From Ureibacillus manganicus DSM 26584 (GTDB taxonomy: Bacteria; Bacillota; Bacilli; Bacillales_A; Planococcaceae), in contig NZ_JPVN01000001.1 in NCBI RefSeq assembly GCF_000772945.1, positions 124,001-188,000 on the forward strand: a stretch of 64,000 nucleotides of DNA, given 5' to 3'. The notes under the pieces were generated by a model. That model ran no database searches. It saw only the letters and a program-made list of their open reading frames with translations, and was not told the DNA's origin. Shown piece after piece: positions 31,941-64,000 of the stretch. How positions within the stretch are numbered: the first letter of the stretch is position 1; every line of letters starts with the position of its first letter. Made by a program: the position numbers and the translations under genes.

Positions 31941-32250
31941 CGTCACGTAAGATCTGCTTTTGTGACAACTCAGGGTGATTTCTTCACCCTATTGTCACGT
32001 AAACTTGTTTTACTAGACATTTCAGGCTCGGATCTTCCCTTTACTGTCGCGTAAACTTGCTTTTCGTGACAACTCAGGCTCGTTTCTCCCCTTTACTGTC
32101 ACGTAAACTTGCTTTTCGTGACAACTCAGGCTCGTTTCTTCCCTTTACTGTCACGTAAACTTGCTTTTCGTGACAACTCAGGCTCGTTTCTTCCCTTTAC
32201 TGTCACGTAAACTTACTTTTCGTGACAACTCAGGCTCGTTTCTTCTTTGA
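31941..32250. repeat. 52-bp tandem repeat array 1 (six units)
   Basis: Units begin at 31941, 31993, 32045, 32097, 32149 and 32201, exactly 52 bp apart. Each starts with a 27-nt dyad: TGTCACG pairs with CGTGACA, there is one mismatch at position 8/20, then AAA/TTT and a 5-nt loop. A 25-nt spacer follows (ACTCAGGCTCGTTTCTTCCC and five more). Unit 2 has a different right arm (CTAGACATTTC) like array 2. The rest of 31704-32310 shows no gene. Confidence 0.95.
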
Positions 32251-32312
32251 GATGTCTTATAACTCCCAGGTTTTGAACATCAAGTGTTTCAAAACTACTC
32301 TTATAAATAGAA

Positions 32313-32355
32313 AAAAAGGCTAATAGAGAGCCATGGCCTCTCTATTAGCCTTTTT
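32313..32355. terminator. Bidirectional terminator after rpmF
   Basis: An 18-bp perfect stem (AAAAAGGCTAATAGAGAG with its complement) and the 7-nt loop CCATGGC. T-runs follow on both strands. It lies 30 nt past the rpmF stop and separates it from repeat array 1. Confidence 0.95.
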
Positions 32356-32384
32356 GTTTTTAGAGCTTTTTCGTACAAGCTCGA

Positions 32385-32558
32385 TTATTTGCTAACTACT
32401 TCTTTACCTTTGTAATGTCCGCAAGATTTGCAAACGTGGTGAGATAAAGTTGCTTCACCACAGTTTGGGCAAGCTACCATACCAGGTACAGATAATTTGA
32501 AATGCGTACGACGCTTTCTTTTAGCAGTTTTAGAAGTTCTTCTAAATGGTACAGCCAT
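32385..32558 (-). CDS. rpmF: Ribosomal protein L32
   Basis: This is a 57-residue L32 of the large ribosomal subunit. The start is ATG 32558 ([20 protein letters not shown]); the ATG three codons upstream adds residues not found in the family. Zinc-ligand cysteines are intact ([20 protein letters not shown]), so this is the zinc-binding form. It is 23 nt after ylbN, as in most bacteria. Confidence 0.98.
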
Positions 32559-32581
32559 TATTGGCACCTCCTTACAGATAG

Positions 32582-33115
32582 TTATTCATCTGTTTGATCA
32601 AAATACTTAGCTAAATCAGCTAGTCTCGGATCTACTTTTGGTTCGTCACTTTCCTTTTGACGAGCAACATCTTCATCTGTTGAATAACTCCAGTTTTTAC
32701 CACCGTGCACTTGTCCTTCAGAACCTTCTTTAAACACTTGCATAGGTATTTCGAGAAGAACTAACTCCTCTAAAACTGGTTTTAAATCGATAACTTCTCC
32801 ATCAACATAATGGATATCTTCATCGTCACTTCCTCGGAGTTCCGGGTCAATCCAACTAAAGACTTCAACCGTATCAACGTTTATAGGAAATTCAACATCC
32901 TCCCACGTTCTAGAACAGGGTAATGTTAATGTTGCAGTCATGGTAAACTGACAAGTCATTTGCGATGCACCGAATGTACAGTGCCCTTTTACATGTACAG
33001 GTGAAATATGGCGAATCTCACTGTTTCGCTTTTTTACTTCCTCTAACTGTACGTTTGTATCAATAGGCATCCCTTTTTGGCGATACTTTGATAATTCATG
33101 AATAGACCATTTCAT
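32582..33115 (-). CDS. ylbN: YceD-family protein YlbN (DUF177)
   Basis: DUF177/YceD proteins are encoded before rpmF across bacteria and are implicated in 23S rRNA or L32-related ribosome biogenesis. The 177-residue protein shows the family stretch [24 protein letters not shown] (read as [19 protein letters not shown]) and the late motif [24 protein letters not shown] 33115 follows a very strong sigma-A promoter (33145-33173). Divergent from tmcAL. Confidence 0.92.
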
Positions 33116-33144
33116 TCATTCATCACCTCGAGACAACAATGTTG

Positions 33145-33173
33145 ATTATATAATGTGAAAATATAGATGTCAA
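33145..33173 (-). promoter_or_regulatory. Consensus sigma-A promoter of ylbN-rpmF
   Basis: On the minus strand TTGACA (33173-33168) and TATAAT (33150-33145) are both perfect and 17 bp apart. This fits strong growth-rate expression of a ribosomal protein operon. Confidence 0.9.
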
Positions 33174-33182
33174 GTTATTTTC

Positions 33183-33212
33183 TTGTCACCACTATAAAAC
33201 CTATACTATAAT
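33183..33212 (+). promoter_or_regulatory. Sigma-A promoter of tmcAL (ylbM)
   Basis: TTGTCA (33183-33188) and a perfect TATAAT (33207-33212) are 18 bp apart, about 35 nt upstream of the tmcAL start. Back-to-back with the ylbN promoter. Confidence 0.75.
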
Positions 33213-33246
33213 TTGGATAATCCAAAAGCTAGGAGTGCAAATACTT

Positions 33247-34455
33247 ATGAAAGCAGTCGGCGTAGTCGTAGAATATAACCCTTTTCACAACGGTCATCAC
33301 TATCATATCAAACAATCTAAAAAGAAAACAGATGCAGATGTTGTTGTTGCAGTAATGAGCGGACATTTTCTTCAAAGAGGAGAACCAGCTCTTGTAGACA
33401 AATGGCACCGGGCAAGAATGGCGCTTCTATCAGGAGTTGATATCGTCATTGAATTACCATATGCATTTGCTACAAGTAAAGCTGAACAGTTTGCAAAAGG
33501 TGCAATTCAACTACTAACTGCCATGAAATGTGAAACATTTGCTTTTGGTAGCGAAGATGGAAATATCGAACCTTTTAACAATACTTACTCTCTACTTCAC
33601 GACTATCGAACGGAATATGAAGAACTTATTAAATATTTTGTTACAAAAGGCAATAGCTATCCAAAAAGTTTATTTGAAGCATATGAACAACTTAAACAAA
33701 AAAGACCTCAATTATACATTGATTTATCACAACCAAATAATATTTTAGGCTATCATTATATTGAAGCGGTTCATAAAATAAATAGCTCTATAAAACCTGT
33801 CACTATTCAAAGAATACAAGCAGGTTTCCATGATGACATTAGCTTGGATTCCACTATTGCAAGTGCAACAGGTATAAGAAAAGCCTTATTTGAAGATGGT
33901 GAATTAAAAAGGATCAACGACTATGTACCAAATACTTCTTTTGAACAATTAATACAATGGGAAAAATCACATCGTCAATTTGTCCATTGGGAAGCTTTTT
34001 GGCCACTTCTGCGTTATACGATTTCCAGGTACTTGCCGAAAGATTTAACCCAATTTGCAGATGTTTCAGAAGGTATTGAGTTTGCTCTAGTGAAATATGC
34101 AAAAGTTAGTAACTCATTTACAGAATTTATGAATCATATTAAATCGAAACGCTACACATGGACAAGACTTCAGCGTATGTTAACTCATATTTTTACTGGA
34201 GTCACAAAAGAACAATTACACAAATTCGATTCGCCCACTTATATTCGTTTATTAGGGATGACAGGAATAGGACAACAATATCTAGGGGAAAAGAAAAAAG
34301 AGTTTGACTTACCACTTATTAGTCGTGTTGCTCAAACAAAAGATGAATTACTACAAATTGATCTACGTACAACCGAGATTTACGCGCAAGGAATTCAATT
34401 ATTTTCAAACAAAAAAATAGACGGAGATTTTCAAACTCCGCCTATCCGAATTTAA
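33247..34455 (+). CDS. tmcAL: tRNA(Met) cytidine acetate ligase TmcAL (YlbM)
   Basis: TmcAL makes N4-acetylcytidine at the wobble base of elongator tRNA-Met, using acetate and ATP. The start is ATG 33247 (MKAVGVVVEYNPFHNGHHYH); an in-frame GTG four codons upstream lies too close to the AGGAG. The nucleotidyltransferase HxGH motif is FHNGHHYH. Further motifs are VVAVMSGHFLQRGEPALVDK, ELPYAFATSKAEQFAKGAI and the C-terminal RLLGMTGIGQQYL. The length of 402 residues is normal. It is one of few plus-strand genes and converges with ylbL, with only 4 nt between stops. Confidence 0.94.
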   Translation: MKAVGVVVEYNPFHNGHHYHIKQSKKKTDADVVVAVMSGHFLQRGEPALVDKWHRARMALLSGVDIVIELPYAFATSKAEQFAKGAIQLLTAMKCETFAFGSEDGNIEPFNNTYSLLHDYRTEYEELIKYFVTKGNSYPKSLFEAYEQLKQKRPQLYIDLSQPNNILGYHYIEAVHKINSSIKPVTIQRIQAGFHDDISLDSTIASATGIRKALFEDGELKRINDYVPNTSFEQLIQWEKSHRQFVHWEAFWPLLRYTISRYLPKDLTQFADVSEGIEFALVKYAKVSNSFTEFMNHIKSKRYTWTRLQRMLTHIFTGVTKEQLHKFDSPTYIRLLGMTGIGQQYLGEKKKEFDLPLISRVAQTKDELLQIDLRTTEIYAQGIQLFSNKKIDGDFQTPPIRI

Positions 34456-34459
34456 CAAC

Positions 34460-35503
34460 TTATTTTTCAGGAAGATCTTCTAAAAATTTTAGTGCATCAT
34501 CAATTGTTTTTACAGGTACGATTTTCATAGTCGTACCTATTTTTTCTGCGGTGATGACTGCAGCTTCATAATTTGATTTAATATCTGGGTTAAGTTCTCT
34601 CATGGAATCAGTAATCTCATCATCTGGAGCGAAGAAAATTTCAATGCCATCTTCGTGAGCTGCAACTACTTTTTTCTCAACGCCACCAATTCGTCCTACC
34701 GTACCATCTTCATTCATTTCCCCTGTTCCTGCGACTAAGTGCCCTTTTGTTAAATCTTCGTCTAACAACTGGTTTAGTACTTCTAAAGTGAACATGAGAC
34801 CTGCTGATGGCCCACCAATCTCCTGTGCATCAACATTTACAAAGGGTTCTGTTTTAATGGATTTACTTTGTGAATAGGTAATGCCAATCCCAATTCGTTT
34901 TGGATCGCTTTTGGGAATTTCTTTTAATGTTAGTGTTCGATCTATTAATTCACCATCTCGATTGAGCACTAAATGAACTTGTTCATTTTCTTTCTTAGCT
35001 TTTAGTAATTCTGTTAATTCCTCAGCTTTATGAATAAATTGACCATCTATTTCTACAATCTCATCTCCTGGTTCAATTTCCCCATCAGCAGCACCCCCCG
35101 ATAGGACATTCAATACAGTAATCCCATTGTAGGTCACCGTAAAAGGTAGCTGTGCTCTTTGAAATGCAATAAATAGGGCATTAAATTGTGAATCAGTCAT
35201 AAGCTTTAATTGACGAACATTGTACTCATTCTCATCTTCTTCTTCGTGTCTAACATCATTTATTTTCATAATATCTTGATATTCGTTGAAATAAGCAAGA
35301 GCATATGTAAGTGGTGTCGCTTGGAACATCGCTACCGTCATTAAGTGAAAGGTTCCCTGATCATCAATATCTCCATCTTGCACAGTAACAAATCTACTTA
35401 CATCATAGGCGCTTCCTGGTTTCATAACATAATACTCTAATCGATAAAAGCATAAGATTAACACGATAACAAAAATTATTATAGAACTAATAATCTTTTT
35501 CAA
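34460..35503 (-). CDS. ylbL: PDZ and Lon-like (S16) membrane protease YlbL
   Basis: YlbL-family proteases have an N-terminal membrane span, a PDZ domain and a Lon-type serine/lysine protease domain facing outward. The start is probably TTG 35503 (MKKIISSIIIFVIVLILC), with AGGAGG 11 nt upstream; the GTG at 35515 overlaps that site. The PDZ core is NVLSGGAADGEIEPGDEIVEIDG (read as GGAADGEIEPGDEIVEIDG). The catalytic Ser is in EIGGPSAGLMFTLEV and the Lys in GGVEKKVVAAHEDG. In B. subtilis YlbL contributes to degradation of a division inhibitor. The length is 347 residues. Confidence 0.92.
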   Translation of the reverse strand: MKKIISSIIIFVIVLILCFYRLEYYVMKPGSAYDVSRFVTVQDGDIDDQGTFHLMTVAMFQATPLTYALAYFNEYQDIMKINDVRHEEEDENEYNVRQLKLMTDSQFNALFIAFQRAQLPFTVTYNGITVLNVLSGGAADGEIEPGDEIVEIDGQFIHKAEELTELLKAKKENEQVHLVLNRDGELIDRTLTLKEIPKSDPKRIGIGITYSQSKSIKTEPFVNVDAQEIGGPSAGLMFTLEVLNQLLDEDLTKGHLVAGTGEMNEDGTVGRIGGVEKKVVAAHEDGIEIFFAPDDEITDSMRELNPDIKSNYEAAVITAEKIGTTMKIVPVKTIDDALKFLEDLPEK

Positions 35504-35825
35504 ATTCCAAAGCACCTCCTAGTTCCGATGCAAGACTAAAAAATTTAGCTAATGCATATATTAGTTTATCATTCCTTTTAACTTCATTCAGTTCAAGTCC
35601 CCACACTAATTTCGGGACAAACTCCATACATTTTTTAAGTAGTTGAATGAAGAAAAACCACCTGGCAGAAATCTGTTGTTTTTTAAATATATGAGTTTAG
35701 CTGAAGATATACGAACCTTACCTAACCAGACTATTATCACTATTGTTATGTACAGGCTAAGCAATAAACAATCAGGTATTCTAATACGCTTTGGTGTTTT
35801 TGATTTGGACAAAATATGAAAAGAG

Positions 35826-36740
35826 TTGGTGTATATTCCTCTAGTATATTTATTTATTTGTATTACCCTAATTATTTTACTATTATTATTTCCTGGTGTG
35901 GCACATGAAGGTACTGATTTAGGTGTAAATTTATTTATGGAAGCTTTGTTTCCTTACCTTCTACCATACTTAATACTAACACAATGGTTTATTCGTTTAA
36001 CGCCGAATCGCAGGCATACATCTTCAAGATTACAATTATATTTAAAAACTTATGGCATCAGTGCTTTAGGTGGATTTCCTACAGGTGCAGCAACAATTGC
36101 CTTTTTAAAAAAAAGCAAACAAATATCCGCTAAAGAAGCAAACGGCCTTTTAAGTATTTGTCATAGTCCAAGCCCCTTATTCGTCATTGGGTTCGTAGGG
36201 TATGACCTATTAAATGATACCATGTTTAGTTGGCGCTTTTTAATTTTATACCATGTTGTATCATTAATTATATTGTTTTTTTTCTATCGAAGTTCAAAAA
36301 AAGAACATTTCGACTTTACTATGGTTACATCTGAAAAAATACCAAAACCACAAAATCCATTTATCAGTAGTATAAAAGATAGTGTACCAACAGTCTTAGT
36401 CGTCGGATCAACATTAGTATTTTTTACGACAATCTATACCGTTGTCATGCATACGATTTCGACATTTATACCTACTATACATAATAGCTTAATACTTTTA
36501 ACCGCAGCATCTCTTGAGATGACGAACGGTCTTCAAATTGCTTCACAGCTTTTCACAAGCGAATCTACGATACTATATTTACTTCTTGCGGCATTTTTAA
36601 CGTCACAAAGTCTTAGCATTCATATGCAAGTCGCAGTTCTCGCAAAAACGGAAAGGATTTCATTAAGACCTTACGTTGCACTTCGATTCCTGTTAACATT
36701 ATTAATTCCTGCATTATATTATGTTTTATTTTTATTATAA
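35826..36740 (+). CDS. ylbJ: YlbJ-like sporulation membrane protein, short form
   Basis: YlbJ is a multi-span protein needed for spore cortex formation in B. subtilis. The 304 residues resemble it along the whole length: an N-terminal span followed by FMEALFPYLLPYLILT, GISALGGFPTGAATIAFLKK, ICHSPSPLFVIGFVGYD and LTSQSLSIHMQVAVLAKTE. It is about 100 residues shorter than the B. subtilis protein, mainly in the middle. The start is uncertain: an in-frame stop at 35817 leaves only TTG 35826 or GTG 35829, with AAAAGAG directly before them. Function is inferred. Confidence 0.8.
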   Translation: MVYIPLVYLFICITLIILLLLFPGVAHEGTDLGVNLFMEALFPYLLPYLILTQWFIRLTPNRRHTSSRLQLYLKTYGISALGGFPTGAATIAFLKKSKQISAKEANGLLSICHSPSPLFVIGFVGYDLLNDTMFSWRFLILYHVVSLIILFFFYRSSKKEHFDFTMVTSEKIPKPQNPFISSIKDSVPTVLVVGSTLVFFTTIYTVVMHTISTFIPTIHNSLILLTAASLEMTNGLQIASQLFTSESTILYLLLAAFLTSQSLSIHMQVAVLAKTERISLRPYVALRFLLTLLIPALYYVLFLL

Positions 36741-51440: not shown

Positions 51441-51495
51441 CATAAAAGCAGAGACAATTTTAATAGTGTTGATAATAAAGTAGGTGGCGCGTTAC

Positions 51496-52425
51496 ATGCA
51501 ATATAAACAAAGTAAAATATTAAAATGGATTGCTGTACTGACTACTCTTGGAATGTTGCTAATTCTATTAGGTGGGGCACTCGTTACAAAAACAGATAGC
51601 GGATTAGGCTGCGGTAGACATTGGCCTGGTTGTAATGGTGAACTAATACCAACTACCATTACTCCGGAAGTATTAATTGAATTTTCTCACCGACTAACAA
51701 CTGGTTCCGTGTCAATTCTAGTACTGATTTTAGTTATTTGGACGTGGAAATCATTAGGACATATCCGTGAAGTTAAATTCTTAGGAGTACTAGCAATCTT
51801 CTTCCTAGTAGCTCAAGCATTAATTGGGGCAGCGCAAGTTTTATGGGGACAAGGTGACTTTATTTTAGCATTGCATTTCGGAATATCTTTAATTTCCTTT
51901 GCATCTATAATGTTACTAGCAATGATTGTTTTTGAAGTTGATACTAAATTTGATGCTGATAAAGTACATATAGGTAGTAAGTTAAAATGGCATACGATTG
52001 GTGTTACATTCTTCTCTTACATTGTTATTTATACAGGTGCACTTGTTCGACATACTGGTTCTAGTTTAAGTTGTTCCGACTGGCCGTTTTGTGATAACAG
52101 CCAACCGTTTGCATTACCTAATGGAATGTTTGAATGGGTACAAATGGGGCATCGTTTCGCGGTTCTATTAATTTTTATTTGGATCGCATATATTACCTGG
52201 CATGCAGTGAAACATTATAAAGATCAACGTGTAATCTATTGGGGATGGATTGTTGCTTTCATTCTTGTAATCTTACAAATTATTGCAGGAATGCTTGTTG
52301 TACTAACAAAGCTTGATTTAATCGTATCTCTATTACACTCATTGTTTATCACATTACTGTTCGGCTTATTCTGTTACAAAATACTATTGATTGCACGTAG
52401 CAATCACAACCAAAAGAATAATTAA
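51496..52425 (+). CDS. ctaA: Heme A synthase
   Basis: CtaA oxidises the C8 methyl of heme O to the formyl group of heme A. The start is ATG 51496 (MQYKQSKILKWIAVLTTLGM) with AGGTGG 8 nt upstream; the GTG four codons earlier overlaps that site. The 309 residues form eight spans. Conserved elements are the cysteine pairs CGRHWPGC and CSDWPFC, and heme-ligand histidines in EFSHRLTTG, LALHFGISL, QMGHRFAVLL and SLLHSLFI. It is divergent from ctaB across 330 nt of regulatory DNA. Confidence 0.97.
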   Translation: MQYKQSKILKWIAVLTTLGMLLILLGGALVTKTDSGLGCGRHWPGCNGELIPTTITPEVLIEFSHRLTTGSVSILVLILVIWTWKSLGHIREVKFLGVLAIFFLVAQALIGAAQVLWGQGDFILALHFGISLISFASIMLLAMIVFEVDTKFDADKVHIGSKLKWHTIGVTFFSYIVIYTGALVRHTGSSLSCSDWPFCDNSQPFALPNGMFEWVQMGHRFAVLLIFIWIAYITWHAVKHYKDQRVIYWGWIVAFILVILQIIAGMLVVLTKLDLIVSLLHSLFITLLFGLFCYKILLIARSNHNQKNN

Positions 52426-52436: not shown

Positions 52437-52482
52437 GGGGAACCTGCTTTATAGGATAGGGTTCCCTATTTTTATTTTTTAC
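52437..52482 (+). terminator. Terminator after ctaA
   Basis: GGGAACC (52438-52444) and GGTTCCC (52460-52466) pair, followed by TATTTTTATTTTTT. Confidence 0.85.
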
Positions 52483-52668
52483 AGATGAATTACTTTACAG
52501 GAAATACTAGAGTTGCAATAGTTTTTGTTCATAATTTAGGGATGTAAGTTTCGAATAGCACTACCTTACGTTTCACTTCACTTGTTTTGACGGCTGAATG
52601 TTAAATTCGTGAAACCATGTCGATTAAATCAATTTTTCTAGACAGTCTCACAAGTTTTCTCCTAATTC

Positions 52669-53035
52669 TTTCTAGTAGACCGCTTCTACAAGACATTTCA
52701 TAAGCAAGGTGCACTTATTATGCCTCATAAACCGCTTCTACTAGACACTTCATTAGCAAATTCCATTTATAATGTCTCATAGACCCCTTCTACTAGACAC
52801 TTCATTAGCAAATTCCATTTATAATGTCTCATAGACCCCTTCTACTAGACACTTCATTAGCAAAGTCCACTTATTATGTCTCATAGACCCCTTCTACTAG
52901 ACATTTCATTAGCAAAATCCACTGGTAATGTCTCATAGACCCCTTCTACTAGACACTTCATTAGCAAAATCCACTGGTAATGTCTCATACACCGCTTCTA
53001 CAAGTCTTTTCATAATCTAAACTCACCATAGTGTC
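52669..53035. repeat. 52-bp tandem repeat array 2 (seven units)
   Basis: Dyads start at 52669, 52721, 52773, 52825, 52877, 52929 and 52981, all 52 bp apart. The typical 27-nt dyad pairs TGTCT with AGACA, has a 2x2 mismatch, then TAGA/TCTA and a 5-nt loop. The 25-nt spacer reads CTTCATTAGCAAATTCCATT plus five. The first and last units are degenerate. The array fills the gap between convergent ctaA and pyc; 52483-52668 and 53036-53170 show no gene. Confidence 0.95.
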
Positions 53036-53177
53036 TCGTAACCATTCGTTTCATAAAACTTACTCAGTAAATTCACTTTCAATTATCTCTAACTTAAGTT
53101 TGTTGGACGCTTCTCCCTAAAACTAATACCAAAATCCTACTATTACTTCTTAGAAGATTACTATCTTAATTCACAAA

Positions 53178-53236
53178 AAAAACCGATCCATCATGAAATT
53201 CTCTGAAAATAGAATTCATTAAATAGATCGGTTTTT
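53178..53236 (-). terminator. Terminator after pyc
   Basis: AAAAACCGATC and GATCGGTTTTT form the outer stem; AATGAATTC and GAATTTCAT inside can extend it. A long T-run follows on the minus strand. Confidence 0.85.
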
Positions 53237-53278
53237 ATGCGCCAAAAACAACTACTAATCTATAGCTATTCTTAAACC

Positions 53279-56200
53279 TTATTCAATCTCTATCAATAAA
53301 TCGCCAGTTGAAATTGCATCTCCTGCTTGTGCAAAGACTTCTTTTACAACCCCATCTTTTGGAGCTTGTACAGTTGTTTCCATTTTCATAGCTTCTGTGA
53401 TCATCAAATGATCACCACGCTTGACAGTGCTTCCCTTGGAAACTACAACTTTTAGGACAGTACCTGGCATCGTTGCACCGATTTGATTTGGATTACTTGG
53501 ATCAGCCTTTAAAGTTATTTTACCATCTACTTCAACTGTCAAATCTTGAATTACTAATTCACGAGATTGACCATTTAATTCAAAATAGAGTGTACGTGTT
53601 CCATCATGCTGTGGTTCACCAATTTCAATCAGCTTGATGATTAACGTTTTTCCTTTTTCAATTTCTACTTCTATTTCTTCACCAAGCTTCAGACCGTATA
53701 GGAATGTCGGTGTATCTAACACAGAAATGTCTCCAAATGCATCGGTTGCTGCAATATATTCTTCAAACACTTTCGGATACAGTGCATAAGCTAGTACATC
53801 TTGTTTTGTTATCGTGCGATTATATTTCGTAGCTAACATACTTTCTATTTTTTCAAAATCAACTGGTTCAAGTAATTCACCCGGACGAACTGTAATTGCT
53901 TCTTTATCCTTTAAGACTATCTCTTGTAATTCTTTTGGGAATCCTCCATGAACTTGCCCTATATAACCTTGGAAAAATTCTACTACCGAATCAGGGAAAT
54001 CAATCGTTAATCCACGAGTAAAAATATTATCTTCATTTAAGTCATTTTGAACCATAAACAAAGCCATATCCCCAACAACTTTAGATGAAGGTGTCACTTT
54101 TACGATATCACCGAACATTAAATTAACAGTTGAGTACATCTTCTTCACTTCGTCAAATCGATCTCCTAAACCAACTGCTCTAGCTTGTTGTTGTAAATTA
54201 CTATATTGTCCACCAGGCATTTCATGAACGTATATTTCAGAGTGCGGACTCTTCATACCACTTTCAAAGTCACTATAGAAGCTTCGCACATCTTCCCAGT
54301 AATAAGATAATTGTTCAAGAGCATCGATATCTACTTTTAGTTCACGTTTACTTCCCTTCATTGCATAATATAATGAGTTAATGCTTGGTTGGGATGTAAA
54401 TCCAGACATAGAACCTAAAGCTGTATCAATAATGTCTACACCTGCTTCGATTGCCTTGGCATACGTGTAAACTCCATTACCACTTGTGTCATGCGTATGG
54501 AGATGAATTGGTAAATTTGTTGTTTCTTTCAGCTCTGAAATTAGACGATAAGCTGCTTCAGGTTTTAACAATCCAGCCATATCTTTAATTGCTAAAATGT
54601 GTGCTCCAGCTGCTTCTAATTCCTTCGCCATATTTTTGTAATACTGAACGGAGTATTTAGCTCGCGAGTCATCAAGAATGTCTCCTGTATAACAAACTGC
54701 TGCTTCAGCAACCTTTCCAGTGTTACGTACTTCATCAATTGCAACTTCCATTCCTTTAATCCAATTTAGACTATCGAATATTCTGAAAACATCAACACCA
54801 CTATTTGCAGACTCTCTAATAAATTCTCTGATTAAATTATCCGGATAATTTTTATAGCCAACTGCATTTGCCCCTCTAAGCAGCATTTGGAATAATACAT
54901 TCGGCATTTTTTCTCGCAACGTTTCAAGTCTTGCCCAAGGATCCTCTTTTAAGAAACGATAGGCTACGTCAAATGTTGCCCCTCCCCACAATTCAAATGA
55001 GAAGAAATTATGCATCATCCGCGCATTATAGTCTGCAATTTGGTACATGTCTTGAGATCGTACTCTTGTTGCTAGTAATGATTGATGCGCGTCACGGAAC
55101 GTAGTATCTGTAAGTAATACATCCTGCTGTTCCTTGATCCATTGAACGAGACCATCTGCACCTTTACTATCTAAAATCTGCTTTGTACCTACAGGAATTT
55201 CAGATTTTAAATCTAGTTTAGGTTTAGTAGGTTGGACTAAGATCGGTTTTTTACGTTTTTCTATTCCAGGGAAGCCGTTTAAAGTGATATTCCCAATATA
55301 GTTTAATAATTTCGTACCACGATCTTTTCGAATTGGAAATTCAAATAATTCAGGTGTAGTGTCAATAAAACTTGTATCGAAATCCCCAGTGATAAATTTT
55401 TCATGTAAAACGACATTTTCTAAAAATGGAATATTCGTTTTCACACCACGAATTCGGAATTCACGCAAGTTTCTATCCATTTTGGCAGCAGCATCTCGGA
55501 ATGTTCTTCCCCATGTAGATATTTTCACTAGTAGTGAATCGTAGTATGGTGTGACAACTGCACCTTGGAATCCATTTCCAGCATCTAGACGAACTCCAAA
55601 TCCGCCACTTGAACGATACACCATTAACTTCCCTGTATCTGGCATAAAGTTATTTGCCGGATCTTCTGTTGTTACTCGCGATTGAATCGCATATCCAAAA
55701 ATAGGAATCTCGTTTTGTTTTGGTATATTCATATATTCCGAATAAAGTTCAGAACCTTCTGAAATTTTAATTTGTGCGTGTACAATATCTATTCCTGTAA
55801 TCATTTCTGTAATTGTATGTTCCACTTGAATACGTGGATTTACTTCGATGAAATAAAACTCGTCACCTGCAACTAAAAATTCTACTGTTCCTGCATTCAC
55901 ATAATTTACATTGCTCATTAATTGAACTGCTGCTGCGCAAATTCGGTTACGTAGTTCTTCACTTAAAGTATTTGATGGTGCAATTTCAACTACCTTTTGG
56001 TGTCTACGTTGAATTGAGCAATCTCGTTCATAAAGGTGGATAATATTCCCTGAATGATCACCTAGAATTTGAACTTCAATATGCTTCGGTTTAATAATTG
56101 CCTTTTCTACATACACCTCATCGGAACCAAAGGCAGCTTTTGCTTCGGATTTAGCTCGCTCATAGCTACTTTGTAAATCATCTTCAGTTTGGACTAGTCG

Positions 56201-56713
56201 CATTCCACGTCCACCGCCACCAAGTGCAGCTTTGATCATTAGAGGATAGCCATATTTTTCACCAAAAGTCTTCAATTCTTCGATGGAAGAAACAGGTCCG
56301 TCACTACCAGGGATGACTGGAATATCAGCCTCAATTGCTTGTTGTCTAGCTTTCACTTTATCTCCGAATATATCCAAATGGTAAGAAGATGGTCCGATGA
56401 AAATTATCCCTTCTTCTTCACATCTTCTTGCAAAATGAACATTTTCAGATAAAAAACCATATCCAGGATGGATTGCATCCACTTCAGCATGCTTTGCAAT
56501 TTCGATAATCCCTTCAATATCTAAATATGCATCAATTGGTTTTTTCCCAACTCCAACAAGATATGACTCATCTGATTTGTAACGATGATGGGATCCGCTA
56601 TCTTCCCTTGAATAAATTGCTACTGTTTTAATATTCAACTCATTGCATGCTCGAAAAATACGAATTGCAATTTCCCCTCTATTTGCAACTAATATTTTAC
56701 TAATCTTCTTCAC
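53279..56713 (-). CDS. pyc: Pyruvate carboxylase
   Basis: Pyc carboxylates pyruvate to oxaloacetate with biotin, ATP and bicarbonate, refilling the TCA cycle. The start is probably GTG 56713, with AGGGGTGG upstream, giving MKKISKILVANRGEIAIRIF and 1144 residues. Order: biotin carboxylase (about 1-450; IKAALGGGGRGMR, FIEVNPRIQVEHT), carboxyltransferase (about 520-820; DTTFRDAHQSLLATR, with IKDMAGLL), and biotin carrier at the end (TEAMKMETT, Lys is biotinylated). It starts 1 nt after ftsW, as in B. subtilis ftsW-pycA. Confidence 0.98.
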   Translation of the reverse strand: MKKISKILVANRGEIAIRIFRACNELNIKTVAIYSREDSGSHHRYKSDESYLVGVGKKPIDAYLDIEGIIEIAKHAEVDAIHPGYGFLSENVHFARRCEEEGIIFIGPSSYHLDIFGDKVKARQQAIEADIPVIPGSDGPVSSIEELKTFGEKYGYPLMIKAALGGGGRGMRLVQTEDDLQSSYERAKSEAKAAFGSDEVYVEKAIIKPKHIEVQILGDHSGNIIHLYERDCSIQRRHQKVVEIAPSNTLSEELRNRICAAAVQLMSNVNYVNAGTVEFLVAGDEFYFIEVNPRIQVEHTITEMITGIDIVHAQIKISEGSELYSEYMNIPKQNEIPIFGYAIQSRVTTEDPANNFMPDTGKLMVYRSSGGFGVRLDAGNGFQGAVVTPYYDSLLVKISTWGRTFRDAAAKMDRNLREFRIRGVKTNIPFLENVVLHEKFITGDFDTSFIDTTPELFEFPIRKDRGTKLLNYIGNITLNGFPGIEKRKKPILVQPTKPKLDLKSEIPVGTKQILDSKGADGLVQWIKEQQDVLLTDTTFRDAHQSLLATRVRSQDMYQIADYNARMMHNFFSFELWGGATFDVAYRFLKEDPWARLETLREKMPNVLFQMLLRGANAVGYKNYPDNLIREFIRESANSGVDVFRIFDSLNWIKGMEVAIDEVRNTGKVAEAAVCYTGDILDDSRAKYSVQYYKNMAKELEAAGAHILAIKDMAGLLKPEAAYRLISELKETTNLPIHLHTHDTSGNGVYTYAKAIEAGVDIIDTALGSMSGFTSQPSINSLYYAMKGSKRELKVDIDALEQLSYYWEDVRSFYSDFESGMKSPHSEIYVHEMPGGQYSNLQQQARAVGLGDRFDEVKKMYSTVNLMFGDIVKVTPSSKVVGDMALFMVQNDLNEDNIFTRGLTIDFPDSVVEFFQGYIGQVHGGFPKELQEIVLKDKEAITVRPGELLEPVDFEKIESMLATKYNRTITKQDVLAYALYPKVFEEYIAATDAFGDISVLDTPTFLYGLKLGEEIEVEIEKGKTLIIKLIEIGEPQHDGTRTLYFELNGQSRELVIQDLTVEVDGKITLKADPSNPNQIGATMPGTVLKVVVSKGSTVKRGDHLMITEAMKMETTVQAPKDGVVKEVFAQAGDAISTGDLLIEIE

Positions 56714-56714
56714 T

Positions 56715-57902
56715 TCATCCACCCCTAAGTTTTTTCTTCGATTCAAGCTTCACATACATTGATACGTTTAACAATATACCCATCGCTAAAGACAACATTA
56801 TAATGGAAGATCCACCATAACTGATATATGGTAAAGTTACCCCCGTTAACGGGATTAAGCCTGATACCCCTCCCAAATTGATGAAGGTTTGTATTGCAAT
56901 CCAACTAGAGATACCCGCAGCTATCATTCTAGCAAGTGGATCTTCTGTTTTCATAGCAATCTGTAACCCTCTAAAAACGATAAAACCTAGTCCAGCTAAT
57001 ACAAGAATAACACCTAATACCCCAAGTTCTTCAGCAATAATCGCCATGATGAAGTCATTATGTGGTTCAGGTAAATAACCTAGTTTTTGAACGGATTGTC
57101 CTAAACCAACCCCTTCTAACCCACCAGCACCAATCGCAATATATCCGTTAATAATTTGGTAACCAGAGCCTGTTTCATATTCAAATGGATTTAAGAAAAC
57201 TTTCAATCGGCCTAATCGATTTTCTGTGAAGATTTTATCTCCCTTCACTAGTAATATAAACGCGATTAAAAGTCCACCTAGAATTGCAAATACTGAGAAA
57301 AACTTTAAATAGGCTTTAAAACTCATTCCACTAGCGGCTATAACAGCAAAAGCAATCCCTGATAAGATCATAACAGCACCGATATCCGGTTCATTGGCAA
57401 CGCAAAAAATAACAAAAATCCAAATTAGAATGGGATAAATAATATTATTTGGTTGCAAATTTTCTAATGGGTTATTTAAGCTTTTCCTGTAAAATGCACC
57501 AGCAAAATATAATATGATAAAGAGCTTCGCAACCTCTGAAGGCTGGAAGTTCATAAACCCTAAATCTAACCAACTTTTAGAACCAGTTTGTTCGAAGCCA
57601 ACCCCGAAAATCCATAACCATATTAGTACTATGATCATTCCAAGTGTCATCATGACCATTAATTTTTTATTACTATAATGTTTATATGGAAAAAAGGCAC
57701 CTATAATAAATGGAATTGATGCAACAGTTAAATTTATTAATTGCTTTATATAATAATAATCCGGAGCTTCTTCTTCTTTAACAATCGCCACCATCATACT
57801 CGAACTGTAGATCATAATTAGTCCGAACAAACATAAAAAAACATATGTAAAAAACAGTGGATAATCAAAATTTCTAATATAATAACCGATGTATTTTCTC
57901 AT
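56715..57902 (-). CDS. ftsW: SEDS glycosyltransferase FtsW
   Basis: FtsW polymerises septal peptidoglycan with PbpB. The 395 residues have about ten spans. Family motifs are GSKSWLDLGFMNFQPSEVAK, VANEPDIGAVMIL, LPEPHNDFIMAIIAEELG and GVTLPYISYGGSSI. Neighbours ylaN and pyc identify it as ftsW rather than rodA or spoVE. The SEDS protein in the division cluster (16803-17891) is its paralogue. Confidence 0.94.
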   Translation of the reverse strand: MRKYIGYYIRNFDYPLFFTYVFLCLFGLIMIYSSSMMVAIVKEEEAPDYYYIKQLINLTVASIPFIIGAFFPYKHYSNKKLMVMMTLGMIIVLIWLWIFGVGFEQTGSKSWLDLGFMNFQPSEVAKLFIILYFAGAFYRKSLNNPLENLQPNNIIYPILIWIFVIFCVANEPDIGAVMILSGIAFAVIAASGMSFKAYLKFFSVFAILGGLLIAFILLVKGDKIFTENRLGRLKVFLNPFEYETGSGYQIINGYIAIGAGGLEGVGLGQSVQKLGYLPEPHNDFIMAIIAEELGVLGVILVLAGLGFIVFRGLQIAMKTEDPLARMIAAGISSWIAIQTFINLGGVSGLIPLTGVTLPYISYGGSSIIMLSLAMGILLNVSMYVKLESKKKLRGG

Positions 57903-59208: not shown

Positions 59209-59218
59209 GAGGAACATA

Positions 59219-59483: not shown

Positions 59484-59501
59484 ATGTGCACTTTTTTAAA
59501 A

Positions 59502-60296
59502 CTATTCATTTTTTATTAACCTTTTTTCAAGTAATTCTACTAATTGATACATAATGGTTGCAAAGACCGCAATGACGAGTAAAGACAATAATACGAGGTT
59601 AAAATTGAATACTTGGAATCCGTAAATGATTAGATAACCTAAACCTTGTGAGGATACGAGGAATTCCCCTACAATAACCCCTACCCAAGATAAGCCTACA
59701 TTTACTTTCAAAGTTGATATAATCGTTGGAAATGATGCAGGTAATATTGCCTCTTTAAACATTTGTGTTCGTGATGCGTTAAAGGTTTGTAATACTTTTA
59801 AATAGTTTGAATCCACCGTTCTAAAGGCTGTATATATTACAATCGTAGAAATAATAACTGAAATTAATGCTCCCATAGTGATAATCGAACTCATTCCTGG
59901 ACCTAATGCTACGATTAAAATCGGCCCAAGCGCTACTTTAGGCATAGAGTTTAATACTACTAAATAGGGATCCAGAACTTTCGATAAAAATGGAGACCAC
60001 CATAATATTGCAGCTAAAATTGTTCCTACCAATGTTCCTAATATAAAACCAAGGACCGTTTCAAACAACGTATAGCTAGAGTGATAGAGTAGTGAATAAT
60101 CAGCTACTTTTTCAACAAATAAATGACCTATTTTTGATGGGGAGCTAAAGATGAGCTGATCAATCCATCGTAATGTGGATGCTACTTCCCAAATTACAAA
60201 AAATAAAACTAAAATTAATAGCTGGTAGAAACGAACCCACATTCTTTCTTTTCTCAAACTTGCTTTGTAATCTTCATGAAGTTTATTAATGTTCAA
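59502..60296 (-). CDS. ABC importer permease (SsuC/TauC/YtlD type)
   Basis: The permease has 264 residues and about six spans. It carries the EAA loop with the G ([40 protein letters not shown]) that contacts the ATPase. The start is TTG 60296 with AAGGAG 10 nt upstream, overlapping the ATPase gene by 11 nt; the longer frame lies inside the ATPase gene. It is the last gene of a three-gene importer. The substrate is not determined by this subunit. Confidence 0.9.
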
Positions 60297-61056
60297 GACT
60301 CTCCAGCTCCTTCCAAATAGTCTGGAATAGCGAAGAATACATTGGATTCGCACGCGCTTCAAAAGGCGTTAAATTTCTAACTTCTTCTGGCACTTCAAAG
60401 GTTTGATAAAGTCGACCTGGTTTTGCAGAAAATAGGAAAATGCGATCACTCATTGCAATTGCTTCACCTATGTCGTGAGTTACAAGTACTGCGGTTTTTC
60501 CATATTCCTTCATTAACTTATGAACTAAATCTTCAAGCTTTAATTTTGATTGGTAGTCAAGTGCTGAGAAGGGTTCATCAAGTAGTAGTATTTTAGGATC
60601 TACAGCTAACGTTCTTGCTAATGCTACCCTTTGTCTCATTCCACCGGATAGTTCCCTTGGATACTTCTTTTCGATTGATGGTAAACCTACATCGGCAAGT
60701 AGTTTCGAAGCAAGTTTTTCCGATTCATCTTTATTTACTTTTAATAGTTTTAAACCAAGCGTGACGTTCTCCTCAATTGTTCTCCAAGGGAATAAATAAT
60801 CTTGTTGAAGCATATATCCAATCGACAAGTCAGCATTTGCAAAAACATCTTGTTCTTCAATTAGTACTTTTCCTGCTGTAGGTGGAAATAATCCCGCAAG
60901 TATTGATAAAAGAGTCGTTTTACCACAGCCACTAGGACCAATAAACGAAACAAACTCTCCTTTTTCAATCGTTAAATTTATATCTTGTAATGCTTCGGTT
61001 GCAGTTTTGCTAGAGAAATACGTATGATGAACTTTGCTGACGGTAAGAAAGCTCAT
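60286..61056 (-). CDS. ABC importer ATPase (SsuB/TauB/YtlC type)
   Basis: The 256-residue ATPase powers the importer. Walker A is GPSGCGKTT (residues 41-49), followed by the Q-loop LQQDYLFPW, the signature [14 protein letters not shown], Walker [13 protein letters not shown] and the switch His in LVTHDIGEA. It groups with nitrate/sulfonate/taurine-type ATPases by its [13 protein letters not shown] stretch. It starts 1 nt after the binding-protein gene. Confidence 0.94.
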
Positions 61057-61057
61057 T

Positions 61058-62056
61058 TTACTTCGACACCTTATCAGCGAAAGTCGTATTCACTAAGTCT
61101 TCATACGGTATTCTCGCAGGTAATTCTCCAGCTTCATCCATAATATTTTGTAAGTTATCCCATTCTTCCTGATCTAAAATTGGATCTTTTGCATAAGATT
61201 CTTGAGAACGATAACGATCGACAACCGTAGCTATCAAATCAACGTCGGTATTTTCAAAATAAGGAACAATTGCTTTTGCAACTTCTTCCGCAGAGCTTGA
61301 GTATACAAAATCTTGTGCTTTTTTAATCGCTCTTGTGAAGGCTTCAATTGTTTCAGGATTTGACGAAATCATACTATCCTTTGTCATAAATACAGTGTAA
61401 GGTACATGACCGGACTCTGTTCCAAATGACGCTACGATATATCCAACACCTTCAGCTTCAAAAATGCTAGCAGTTGGCTCAAATAATTGAACAAAGTCAC
61501 CAGTTCCTGAAGCAAATGCTGTTGAGATATTAGCAAAATCAATATTTTGAATTAACTCTAAATCCGCATGTGGATCAATTCCATGCTGTTTTAATACATA
61601 CTCCCCTACCATTTGCGGCATACCGCCCTTACGTTGACCTAGGAAAGTAGAATCCTTTAACATATCCCAAGTAAAGTTTTCAATCGGCTCACGGGAAACT
61701 AAAAACGTTCCATCAGTTTGTGTTAACTGTGCGAAGTTCTTAATCGGGTCATTTGCTCCTTGCGCTGATACATAAATGGATGTTTCAGCTCCAACAAGTG
61801 CTACATCGATGCCATCTGATAATAGGGCCGTCATCGTTTTATCTCCACCAGGAATCGTCGATAGTTCGATTTTTAGGCCTTCTTCCTCAAAATACCCTTT
61901 CTCAATTGCTACATATAGTGGTGCATAGAAAATAGAACGAGTTACTTCACCAACCTTTACAGTTTTAAGTTCTTCTTTTCCACCACATGCGGCAAGAACG
62001 AGAACCATTAAACTAGAAAAGACAACTAGTAACAAAGGCTTTAACCATCTTTTCAC
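61058..62056 (-). CDS. ABC importer substrate-binding lipoprotein (NMT1/SsuA-like)
   Basis: The start is GTG 62056, with AGGAGG 9 nt upstream, giving MKRWLKPLLLVVFSSLMVLV and the lipobox LAAC (Cys about residue 24). The mature protein is a periplasmic-binding-protein type II fold of the NMT1/SsuA kind (VGEVTRSIFYAPLYVAIEKG, DVALVGAETSIYVSAQ, GTFLVSREP). It should capture a small organic solute outside the membrane. Candidates are a sulfonate, a pyrimidine precursor or similar; B. subtilis YtlA is the closest type I know. The length is 332 residues. A dyad (TAGGCAA with TTGCCTA) lies in the leader at about 62106-62138. Confidence 0.9.
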   Translation of the reverse strand: MKRWLKPLLLVVFSSLMVLVLAACGGKEELKTVKVGEVTRSIFYAPLYVAIEKGYFEEEGLKIELSTIPGGDKTMTALLSDGIDVALVGAETSIYVSAQGANDPIKNFAQLTQTDGTFLVSREPIENFTWDMLKDSTFLGQRKGGMPQMVGEYVLKQHGIDPHADLELIQNIDFANISTAFASGTGDFVQLFEPTASIFEAEGVGYIVASFGTESGHVPYTVFMTKDSMISSNPETIEAFTRAIKKAQDFVYSSSAEEVAKAIVPYFENTDVDLIATVVDRYRSQESYAKDPILDQEEWDNLQNIMDEAGELPARIPYEDLVNTTFADKVSK

Positions 62057-62240
62057 GCACACTTTCCTCCTCTTTATTTCGACTGTTTTATCTAGAGTAG
62101 AGTATGCTAGGCAAAGAAAATGTGTTAATTGCCTATATCTAAAGTAATGCGCGCTCACTTAATCTTTTTAAAAAAATTGTCTTCATCTTTTAATACATCA
62201 CTTTTCAAGTTTGAAAATCGCTCACAGACGGAATTGACAT

Positions 62241-62291
62241 ACGACATATTGAAAATTAAGTGCAGTTTGCACATAATTCTGGATATGTCGT
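62241..62291 (+). other. Nested inverted repeat in a gene-free gap
   Basis: ACGACATAT (62241-62249) pairs exactly with ATATGTCGT (62283-62291); inside, GTGCA (62260) pairs with TGCAC (62268-62272) around GTT. TTGACA precedes it directly (62235-62240). The 383-nt gap 62057-62439 holds this and the hairpin at 62335-62354, with no supportable gene. Confidence 0.55.
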
Positions 62292-62334
62292 GTGTTATTT
62301 TTGGAAATACGGATGTTTATGAGAAATAGATCGC

Positions 62335-62365
62335 CTAGAATAATTGGTTTCTAGACAATTTTTTA
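62335..62365 (+). terminator. Plus-strand terminator-like hairpin
   Basis: CTAGAA (62335-62340) and TTCTAG (62349-62354) form a stem, followed by ACAATTTTTTAATTTTT. There is no plus-strand gene before it, so it may end a small transcript. Confidence 0.5.
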
Positions 62366-62439
62366 ATTTTTACTTAGATTTATTCCTTATAATTTATAAC
62401 TGAGGCTTATCAAAGTCGATACGATTCTAATTTGTTGGG

Positions 62440-63003
62440 TTATTCAATTGGTCTTGAAGACATAAATTCATTTCCATTAGAATCCATAAAAATACGGGGG
62501 GCCACTTTTACTAATTCCATATAAAATTCACCTTCGCCGGTAATATAAAATGTATTACCTTTCGTTGTAATTTTTATATTATCAATTTCCATCTCAATTC
62601 GTTTTTGACTTAGTATTTCCTTTTCCTTTTCAGGATTCATTCCAGGTTTATAATTGTTCAAAATCGGATCTTCAATAACCTTTAACTTCCCCTTAAAAAA
62701 TTCCAATTTATTGTGCTGATCAATTCTCCCAACTAATATGTTATCTTCTAGATCACTTTCTTTAGCTATATAATATGGTTCATTTCCTGTAGTTAGTTGA
62801 TTTCCTTGATTCATATAGAAATAAATTAAACCAAAAGAAATGAATAGTACCAATGCTACTACTAGTTTAGGAATAAAGAATCTTTTCTTTTGATTCACCT
62901 GCAATCGATTATGAACAATCATTTTATCTCTCACTGTAAACTTTGGTTCTGAAAATATTGAGTCATCTAATGCCTGACGCAAGTTCTTTAATTGTTCATC
63001 CAT
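62440..63003 (-). CDS. Probable anti-sigma factor, single membrane span
   Basis: The 187-residue protein has a cytoplasmic N-terminal part of about 43 residues (LRQALDDSIFSEPKFTVRDK), one span at about 45-64 (PKLVVALVLFISFGLIYFY) and an extracytoplasmic domain. That topology, and its 8-nt overlap with the ECF sigma gene, make it the cognate anti-sigma factor by inference. No zinc-binding HxxxCxxC motif is present in the N-terminal part, so it is not a ZAS-type anti-sigma. The outer domain is not one I recognise. Confidence 0.72.
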   Translation of the reverse strand: MDEQLKNLRQALDDSIFSEPKFTVRDKMIVHNRLQVNQKKRFFIPKLVVALVLFISFGLIYFYMNQGNQLTTGNEPYYIAKESDLEDNILVGRIDQHNKLEFFKGKLKVIEDPILNNYKPGMNPEKEKEILSQKRIEMEIDNIKITTKGNTFYITGEGEFYMELVKVAPRIFMDSNGNEFMSSRPIE

Positions 63004-63553
63004 TTAAATCGCTCCCTTCTAGTATCATTCTTAAAGATTCACGGGCCCTCATAAGTCTGGATTTAATTGTGTTTTGGTTTTTATTTAATACATTTGATAT
63101 TTCTTTTATAGATAATTCCTCGTAATAATATAACAAAACCACTTCTCTATACTTTAATGGTAAGGATAAAACAGCTTGAACTAATTTTGACTGTGATTCA
63201 TGATTTTCATATAGTTTCTCTGGTGAAGGTTGTTTTGATTGGATATGTGAGAAGAAATTATTTAATACAAGCACTCTTCTGAACCAAGCAGTACGTGTTG
63301 CATCCTTTGCTCGATTGATAGCAATACGGTAAACCCAAGCTTTATAAGATGTGATTTGCTTATGGTTTTCATAGTGATCATAACAAGTCACAAATACATC
63401 TTGTACTATTTCTTGTGCTTTTCCCCAGTCTTTCACATATGTGAATACTAAATTCACAAGAGCATTACCGTACTCATTCATAAGATCTTCCAACCACAAT
63501 TCAGCTGTATCGAGTACATTTGAGTTTTCACTACGAGGCTGTGATAAGTCCAT
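62996..63553 (-). CDS. ECF-family RNA polymerase sigma factor
   Basis: The start is ATG 63553 (MDLSQPRSENSNVLDTAELW) with AGGAGAGGAG upstream; the longer frame would contain the gene's own promoter. The 185-residue length is typical for ECF sigmas, with only regions 2 and 4. Region 2 shows LVFTYVKDWGKAQEIVQDVF and YKAWVYRIAINRAKD. Region 4 shows LPLKYREVVLLYYYEELSIK and LNKNQNTIKSRLMRARE. The promoter at 63589-63615 fits ECF recognition, so it is probably autoregulated. Next gene downstream is the anti-sigma candidate. I cannot assign a named sigma. Confidence 0.92.
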   Translation of the reverse strand: MDLSQPRSENSNVLDTAELWLEDLMNEYGNALVNLVFTYVKDWGKAQEIVQDVFVTCYDHYENHKQITSYKAWVYRIAINRAKDATRTAWFRRVLVLNNFFSHIQSKQPSPEKLYENHESQSKLVQAVLSLPLKYREVVLLYYYEELSIKEISNVLNKNQNTIKSRLMRARESLRMILEGSDLNG

Positions 63554-63588
63554 AATTAACTCAACTCCTCTCCTTGCGTTTCCCCTAA

Positions 63589-63615
63589 GACGAGTTAGCA
63601 TTCGTTTTCGTTTCA
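63589..63615 (-). promoter_or_regulatory. ECF-type autoregulatory promoter
   Basis: On the minus strand TGAAAC (63615-63610) and CGTC (63592-63589) are 17 bp apart, the pattern known for sigma-M and related ECF promoters of B. subtilis. It would start transcription about 30 nt before ATG 63553. Confidence 0.85.
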
Positions 63616-63667
63616 TTTTTTATGTAAATTTTAACAGATTTAGGTTTTCATCTTCCAATTTATTTAA

Positions 63668-64000
63668 TACATCTTCATCACTTTATGAAGACCTTTTCTT
63701 TCACATATTTCAATTCAAAAGGTCTTCATCGCCTTATCAAGACCTTTTCCCTCGCATTTTCCAATTCAAAAGGTCTTCATCACCCTTATCAAGACCTTTT
63801 CCCTCGCATTTTCCATTTCAAAAGGTCTTCATCGCCCTTATCAAGACCTTTTCCCTCGCATTTTCCAATTCAAAAGGTCTTCATCGCCCTTATCAAGACC
63901 TTTTCCCTCGCATTTTCCAATTCAAAAGGTCTTCATCGCCCTTATCAAGACCTTTTCCCTCGCATTTTCCAATTCAAAAGGTCTTCATCGCCCTTATCAA
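63668..64000. repeat. 52-bp tandem repeat array 3 (at least seven units, runs off the window)
   Basis: Dyads start near 63668 (degenerate), then at 63720, 63771, 63823, 63875, 63927 and 63979. The interval is 52 bp, with one of 51. AGGTCTT pairs with AAGACCT, extended outward by AAA/TTT; there is a C-C mismatch at position 8/20, then AT/AT and a small loop. The spacer reads TTTCCCTCGCATTTTCCAAT plus five. The right end of the array is outside the window. Confidence 0.95.

Follow-up and report, generated by a model that had tools for sequence, protein, structure and literature searches.

Tandem arrays in the window

The stretch of DNA analyzed here (the window, 64,000 bp) comprises bases 124001-188000 of contig 1 (NZ_JPVN01000001.1) in the 4.05-Mb genome of Ureibacillus manganicus DSM 26584, the relatives of which are other Ureibacillus and species still named Lysinibacillus. 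It contains three tandem arrays of short imperfect palindromes, arrays 1, 2, and 3 (Table 1), which belong to a family restricted to the genus. We tentatively regard this family, without yet calling it probable, as a set of DNA satellites lying between genes. A preliminary description of the sequence had given each array a 52-bp period and a unit made of a 27-nt dyad and a 25-nt spacer. The period was borne out by Tandem Repeats Finder, which placed the arrays at 31942-32245, 52676-53001, and 63672-64000 (scores 452-574, against only 40-54 for the remaining seven rows of the window), and by a sequence-agnostic self-match scan, which, apart from a single 183-bp repeat near 22.4 kb, returned arrays 1-3 at period 52 and its multiples. 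On rereading of the sequence, the dyad and spacer lengths, the mismatch positions, and the named arms were also as described. The end of the window truncates array 3, which extends for about another 75 bp (L006 1688-2075, equal to window 63688-64075); it was counted once, via L006, and the window copy was left out.

Table 1. Arrays and associated features (window positions unless a sequence label is given).
Feature	Location	Strand	Description
Array 1	31941..32292	-	Dyad TGTCACG...CGTGACA; about six units of 52 bp, with a further, decayed one at the right edge; Tandem Repeats Finder, self-match
Array 2	52643..53053	-	Dyad on the plus strand TGTCTCATAG...CTACTAGACA; about seven to eight units of 52 bp, decayed at the edges; Tandem Repeats Finder, self-match
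Array 3	63668..64000	-	Dyad AGGTCTT...AAGACCT; GGTC class of the family
Terminator-like hairpin	32312..32355		Flanks array 1 on the right and follows the short open reading frame that precedes the YceD gene; read from the sequence
Non-repetitive purine-rich stretch	31764..31940		Between the enoyl-CoA hydratase start and array 1
Terminator-like hairpin	52437..52480	+	Of the COX15/CtaA-family gene (51484-52425); points towards array 2
Terminator-like hairpin	53176..53237	-	Of the pyruvate-carboxylase-like gene (53279-56746); points towards array 2 from the opposite side
Direct-motif arrays, own genome	L011 5694-6299; L040 12417-12873; L102 622-876		
Direct-motif arrays, U. acetophenoni	L088 5308-6050; L086 12415-12866		
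Direct-motif array, G021	L226 13587-13950		

The neighbors in the window are ordinary, namely genes of the enoyl-CoA hydratase, YceD, and COX15/CtaA families, a pyruvate-carboxylase-like gene, and a sigma-70 family factor gene. As read from the sequence, array 1 is flanked by a terminator-like hairpin on one side and the start region of the next gene on the other, and array 2 sits between the terminator-like hairpins of two convergent genes. The hairpin beside array 1 is present in all four relatives aligned, and the short open reading frame (ORF) before the YceD gene is probably rpmF. Judging from the sequences and the gap lengths, the purine-rich stretch next to array 1 seems to be mostly part of an insertion that relatives lack; the gap was placed by reading the sequences, since automatic alignment misplaces it. 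A scan of the window with Rfam covariance models at gathering score found only a T-box leader (4532-4811, minus strand) preceding a 919-aa ORF and a Bacillaceae-1 RNA (RF01690; 58361-58423, plus strand), both outside the arrays. The 183-bp repeat (22381-22713), at best about 83% identical, lies just upstream of a 670-aa minus-strand ORF (20313-22325) and overlaps a small 83-aa ORF.

Distribution, period, and unit classes

With array 1 as query, matches were found to arrays on other contigs of the same genome, several of them near contig ends. Several assembly breaks of G000 lie near or within arrays (contigs C17, C18, C24, C36, and C47); similar units occur at the ends of C47 and C36, possibly as parts of a single array. 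In each unit of the family, an imperfect inverted repeat of 27 nt (usually TGTC-N19-GACA) is combined with a spacer of 24-25 nt. Other arm pairs in the fetched stretches were TGTCTTAATAA/TTATTAGGACA, TGTCCAATAT/ATATTGGACA, TGTCTCATAG/CTACTAGACA, and GGTCTTCAT/ATGAAGACC. The double pattern TGTC-N19-GACA-N{10,40}-TGTC-N19-GACA (periods 37-67) occurred in 13 of the 25 genus genomes, with 1,622 forward matches ranging from 460 down to 1 per genome, and the reversed-pattern control gave 0 matches within the same 25 genomes. Among the matches listed, the spacing was 51 or 52, with one 53. Outside the genus (261 family genomes in all), 3/236 genomes had one match apiece, with periods of 49, 41, and 60, as expected by chance, and the reversed control there gave up to 3 matches in single genomes. 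This family-wide search covers the TGTC core only, which the pattern requires; GGTC and other cores exist.

Extrapolating from 9 arrays in 346 kb of the own genome, there might be about 100 arrays per genome. Of the TGTC arrays, 69/76 are not covered by an ORF of at least 90 aa, and we take the ORFs covering the other 7 to be chance open frames. The arrays behind the hairpin-distance, spacer-profile, purine-background, within-array, and per-genome counts came partly from targeted array searches and are no random sample.

The preliminary description had named a broad spread of periods as an outcome that would refute its interpretation. Three collinear blocks were taken whole, and a period of 51, 52, or a multiple was found for 9/11 tandem arrays in a 346-kb contig of the own genome, 12/18 in U. 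acetophenoni, and 7/13 in the complete genome G022. Overall, 28/42 arrays fall at this peak, including at least one direct-motif array without a dyad (locus E, see below), and the other 14 are scattered over 13 different periods, some within ORFs. In arrays selected for periods 51-53, the hairpin distances (n=485) were 52 (400), 51 (47), and 53 (2), and mostly multiples otherwise. The 52-bp period thus holds for all three window arrays, but 51 bp is common in U. acetophenoni and also present in this genome. It had also been proposed that 52 bp represents five helical turns, with all dyads on one face of the DNA. The coexistence of 51-bp and 52-bp arrays in one genome weakens this argument and leaves it unsupported; both lengths are near five turns, with a twist difference between them of about 35 degrees for every unit. 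A light sampling of less array-rich genus members (L209-L228 and L042-L053; 557 kb) yielded two arrays with a period of 51-52 bp or a multiple of it. One, in G021, is a direct-motif array of 103 bp, and the other, in L. yapensis, has a period of 52 bp.

The arrays share a loose spacer profile on the purine-rich strand, which is G-rich at about position 34, has an A-run at about 38-41, and ends in GAR before the next TGTC. It was derived from 56 TGTC arrays, including arrays 1 and 2 (56/73 arrays kept, those with fewer than two hairpins dropped); array 3 lies outside this set and fits by eye only. The array sequences, although described beforehand as different, are thus not unrelated. By reading, array centers are uniform and edges decayed.

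Two other kinds of array were observed. In one, a 9-13-bp motif (TTCTAATAA, ATCGCAAATAA, TTCGCCAAAAT, or TTTGACTATTAAG) recurs between genes in direct orientation every 25.5-26 bp or so, half the dyad-array period (Table 1). The other is a further 52-bp class with a different core, GGTAACAGAG...CTCAGTGCCC, seen at locus D in the C25 block of G001 and at L107 6001-6257, and adjoining a TGTC array in one case. When plasmid sequences were queried with array 1, no match was found. Two viral contigs match the multi-unit pattern, one being a GC-rich sequence without a periodic array. The other (IMGVR_UViG_3300007759_000741, L229 3462-3729) carries a genuine TGTC array of period 52, the spacers of which are similar in style; the contig is filed as viral, and its host and phage nature are uncertain. 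A YceD query against viral contigs returned nothing.

Hairpin structure and covariation

The stems covary strongly across arrays. With one representative unit for each of 75 arrays from 12 genomes (75/76 kept after removal of one duplicate hairpin), standard pairs filled 85.5% of cells, versus 70.4±1.0 after shuffling. The arm covariation was 0.387 versus 0.131 shuffled (0/500), sliding the partner gave at most 0.119, and in whole-arm shuffles 361 Watson-Crick cells were observed versus 222±12. The TGTC/GACA pairs are fixed by selection of the set and carry no weight, so that only inner pairs count, and related arrays are not independent; a first alignment of 30 units, picked mostly by regular expression, likewise fixes this core. 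Arm positions 5-8 each take five or six standard pair types. Compensation is also seen at single loci. At locus B, common to the own genome and U. acetophenoni, the spacers look alike and pairs 5, 7, and 9 have changed on both sides and are still paired, pair 6 is now T-G, and pairs 8 and 11 are lost. Pair 6 is compensated at locus C, as are pairs 5, 6, and 10 at locus A between U. acetophenoni and G022. Arm changes without compensating changes, the other outcome named in advance as adverse, were thus not the rule across the 75 arrays or at a locus shared by two species, although compensation did not extend to every pair.

Pairing is not universal. In U. sinduriensis (G012), array L138 has 1/7 inner pairs and no dyad hairpin in the DNA fold. 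In G022, array L111 persists with three neighboring inner mismatches. Of six units folded as single-stranded DNA, four were clearly better than shuffles and two (L112 and L138) were not. Within arrays (37 kept, those with fewer than four distinct units dropped), arm letters covary in the other genomes (575 versus 530±8.5) but not in G022. A second conserved hairpin in the spacer, first suspected by eye, failed the pair count (45.3% versus 46.2% shuffled).

The preliminary description held that keeping length and fold while changing sequence suggests selection. Length and fold are indeed largely kept, genome-wide and across species. Selection is not proven, because the arm letters in G022 are independent within arrays, one array is nearly without inner pairing, and template switching can yield compensatory changes. 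According to the available part of one report, template switching during replication can produce compensatory multi-base stem changes in one step (PMC8794818), and strand bias is described for quasipalindrome mutation or correction in the accessible text of another (PMC7202029).

Orientation relative to replication

The spacer purine fraction exceeded 0.5 on the skew-leading strand in 68/76 arrays, and in 56/60 where the absolute GC skew was at least 0.05. The former count leaves out 11 arrays classed as "other" and 6 GGTC arrays, whose spacers are above 0.5 in 5/6 cases (range 0.45-0.71). In array 1, the minus strand is the purine-rich, skew-leading side. The mean values by genome are 0.50-0.76, and since background intergenic DNA of three genomes reaches only 0.525-0.531 on the same strand, skew alone is insufficient for the usual array values. 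In the complete genome G022, the oriented triple pattern gave 59 reverse and 213 forward matches; among the 100 matches listed, all 58 reverse ones lie at 0.23-1.93 Mb and all 42 forward ones at 2.80-3.50 Mb. Over the sampled array-bearing stretches of this genome, GC skew is negative at 0.2-1.9 Mb and positive from 2.8 Mb on. Array orientation tracks replication more than neighboring genes, and 11/57 arrays lie between two genes that are both opposite to the array strand.

Known polar motifs (SpoIIIE recognition sequences [SRS], FtsK orienting polar sequences [KOPS], chi-like motifs, and the Spo0A box) were tested on the arrays, and none is common to all. AGCGG, presumably a chi-like motif, is frequent on the leading strand of G022 arrays (5.08 versus 0.48 per kb background; 13/25 arrays), which are also rich in GAGAAG[CG]G. 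It is less enriched in the own genome (7/27 arrays) and not enriched in U. acetophenoni (0.45 versus 0.40 per kb).

Transcription context

By a simple rule, terminators point into the arrays at the 5' side on the same strand in 17/81 cases and at the 3' side on the opposite strand in 19/76. Terminators pointing out were found in 1/76 on the leading strand and 8/81 on the lagging strand, compared with 11/320 random windows. Because terminators point in and seldom out, the arrays seem to lie outside transcription units.

A structured RNA array had been named as the alternative to DNA sites. Transcription as tandem structured RNAs (a small RNA array, for example, or an RNA sponge), whose A/G-rich linkers would be of leading-strand sequence, would agree with the strong covariation of stem pairs and with the RNA-like look of a hairpin joined to an unstructured purine linker, and G022 alone has a mild excess of G-T over A-C mismatches (20 versus 10). 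However, G-T and A-C mismatches in stems are similar overall (44 versus 36, p 0.43), which gives no clear sign that the stem is maintained as a single-strand transcript. Furthermore, the single leading-strand terminator-like site at a 3' end contrasts with the many pointing in, no Rfam family was found in the window's arrays, and only 20/57 arrays lie between two genes on the array's strand. The alternative is therefore not supported, and we consider it decidedly improbable; the inward terminators and similar mismatch counts argue for a DNA element rather than RNA.

The arrays might instead be tandem terminators or roadblocks that stop transcription head-on to replication. When read on the lagging strand, 32/82 arrays hold a hairpin and T-rich DNA passing the simple terminator rule, versus 3/82 on the leading strand. 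Arrays also occupy convergent gaps in 6/25 cases (24%, versus 13% of gaps) and divergent gaps in 2/25 (8%, versus 17%), both being raw counts from small numbers. However, the conserved T-run begins about 11-14 nt past the hairpin rather than directly behind it, the lagging-strand excess may come from spacer composition alone, and the genes flanking arrays 1 and 2 have their own terminators. This explanation appears very improbable.

Turnover of array sites and mobile elements

Array sites turn over between related genomes. The array 2 site measures 844 bp here versus 122-262 bp in the ten relatives measurable (of twelve examined), which have no array there, and the array 1 site has no array in 24/24 genus genomes, G003 having a long gap but no array there. 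At the array 3 site, the own genome, U. acetophenoni, and G022 all have arrays, with three different units and periods of 52, 51, and 52. Seven contig-1 arrays of the own genome could be bracketed in U. acetophenoni; a 51-52-bp array occupies the corresponding position for 3 of them and is missing for 4. Of seven bracketed in G022, 1 has such an array in the matching position. One array locus is common to U. acetophenoni and G022, and locus E carries a direct-motif array in the former and a dyad array in the latter.

A common mobile flank was rejected, as 118 flanks from three genomes match only apparent insertion sequence (IS) copies, orthologous loci, neighboring arrays, and a few short or weak hits. 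In G022, IS256-family (Transposase_mut) elements lie directly against arrays at L105, L111, L113, L114, and L116, four of them with identical flanks, and arrays seem to be landing sites of these elements in this genome. Spread of repetitive extragenic palindromic (REP), BIME, or REPIN-type elements by a REP-associated tyrosine transposase (RAYT, a Y1 transposase) was also considered. The REP arrays of P. fluorescens SBW25 are likewise tandem, consist of imperfect palindromes outside genes, and differ in polarity between the two sides of the chromosome, as far as the available text describes them (PMC3116915). However, the Y1_Tnp profile (PF01797, E <= 0.001) had no match in the own genome, G003, G008, G011, G015, or G022, all array-bearing. 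It was positive in 14/25 genus genomes in a pattern unlike array richness, including genomes without TGTC matches (G002, G006, G017, and G021 among them). RAYT-driven spread was rejected on the absence of matches from the six array-bearing genomes; it is largely refuted, and we give it hardly any credence.

Proposed explanation

To account for the observed family, geometry, period, covariation, orientation, and site turnover, we propose that the arrays are a replication-coupled hairpin satellite, selfish or structural, which we consider a serious possibility somewhat short of probable. At the fork, the strand with the leading-strand sequence becomes single-stranded as the lagging-strand template. 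There, each unit would fold into a hairpin, with unstructured purine linkers between successive hairpins, and arrays would grow, shrink, homogenize, and be copied to new places through replication-coupled events at the hairpins, namely slippage, unequal recombination, and template switching, at sites that look tolerated and outside transcription units. Such events would account for how the arrays are oriented with respect to the fork, the uniform centers and decayed edges, the near-fixed period despite sequence change, and the complementary arm changes. The site turnover and the strand-neutral compensation also fit a DNA satellite living on lagging-strand hairpin fork events. We infer both this mechanism and the absence of a sequence-specific host function.

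Several observations weigh against this explanation. Eight of the 76 arrays run contrary to the polarity, and U. aquaedulcis (G003) has no purine bias (mean 0.50 over 5 arrays). Arrays can apparently persist, several loci being common to different species. The arm letters within G022 arrays are independent from unit to unit (662 Watson-Crick cells versus 659.5±2.9 shuffled), which speaks against template switching in single units, and the evidence for slippage and copying is indirect. In addition, TGTC/GACA and the 51-52 period are kept through many sequence classes in 13 genomes, which a neutral satellite need not do and which looks like recognition by something.

The arrays could thus be spaced sites for an undescribed dimeric DNA-binding protein, a nucleoid or chromosome-segregation factor, with TGTC...GACA half-sites at 51-52 bp and with the polarity giving the replication direction. 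We consider this the main rival, though unlikely, and retain it mainly because the core and the period recur across species. The core is kept in many arrays while inner arms vary, inner pairing is disrupted in L111, which persists, and in L138, the spacing is narrow, the independent arm letters in G022 behave like degenerate half-site positions, and the polarity resembles that of translocase-guiding motifs. However, arms in G022 differ between arrays yet match within an array (125 versus 104.3, 0/1000), which one sequence-specific protein does not explain. Spacings of 51 and 52 bp together would not hold one helical face, array sites come and go, none of the polar motifs tested is shared by all arrays, and the TGTC core was imposed by the search. 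A bolder version, which we regard as unlikely, is a chromosome-wide replication-polar array system. Its 51-52-bp hairpin units would be free to vary in sequence while geometry and polarity stay fixed, and a dedicated protein would read them at the fork or on the lagging-strand template, so that the arrays mark replication direction or fork handling in a manner specific to this genus. If a protein does read the arrays, they would represent a genus-wide chromosome-organizing system so far missed.

The arrays offer a natural data set, since their sequence turns over but the length of the unit, the geometry of the dyad, and the polarity relative to replication are largely maintained. Orthologous loci with different units across species can test selection versus template switching as the source of compensatory changes, and the arrays allow testing whether lagging-strand hairpins drive bacterial repeat arrays.

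Comparison with known systems

The preliminary description knew of no described family with these properties, and in the open-licence literature we likewise found no description of such a repeat family in titles or abstract starts among the matches listed. Several known systems share some of the features. Bacterial interspersed mosaic elements (BIMEs), the tandem REP clusters of enterobacteria, are tandem palindromes with short spacers outside genes, as here, but the Ureibacillus arrays have no Y1 transposase match in several array-rich genomes, their polarity follows the replichore, and their sequence is unrelated. The neisserial intergenic mosaic elements (dRS3/RS) also alternate short inverted repeats with spacers in intergenic arrays, but with variable spacer lengths and a fixed inverted-repeat sequence. 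KOPS, SRS, and chi follow replication in their orientation, as the arrays do, but are short motifs of fixed sequence. The arrays are not CRISPR arrays, judged on the spacers alone, which repeat along with the dyads. As in REP, BIME, and REPIN families, imperfect palindromes stand outside genes in ordered clusters (69/76 clear of ORFs of at least 90 aa). However, such families have one conserved palindrome each, whereas arm positions 5-8 here take five or six pair types, and a Y1 tyrosine transposase in the genome, which was not matched in the own genome and five others.

In the part available to us, a 2006 survey of low-GC Firmicutes reports that most stable intergenic stem-loops are terminator-like and not due to large repeat families (PMC1590033). 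The beta-proteobacterial BRE, as described in the accessible text, are similar to the present arrays in being mostly intergenic, possibly tandem, and variable in copy number and sites among related species; they differ in their full-length units of 75-91 bp in Bordetella, and the authors state there that they are not co-oriented with the replication fork (PMC3110155). The nearest report that we found, seen in part, concerns the tandem REP arrays and REPINs of P. fluorescens SBW25 (PMC3116915). These are likewise palindromes outside genes in ordered tandem arrays with opposite orientation on opposite chromosome sides (forward near 2 Mb and reverse near 4 Mb), but their spacings are 112 and 72 bp and they are linked to RAYT genes, whereas the Ureibacillus arrays keep 51-52 bp with many arm sequences.

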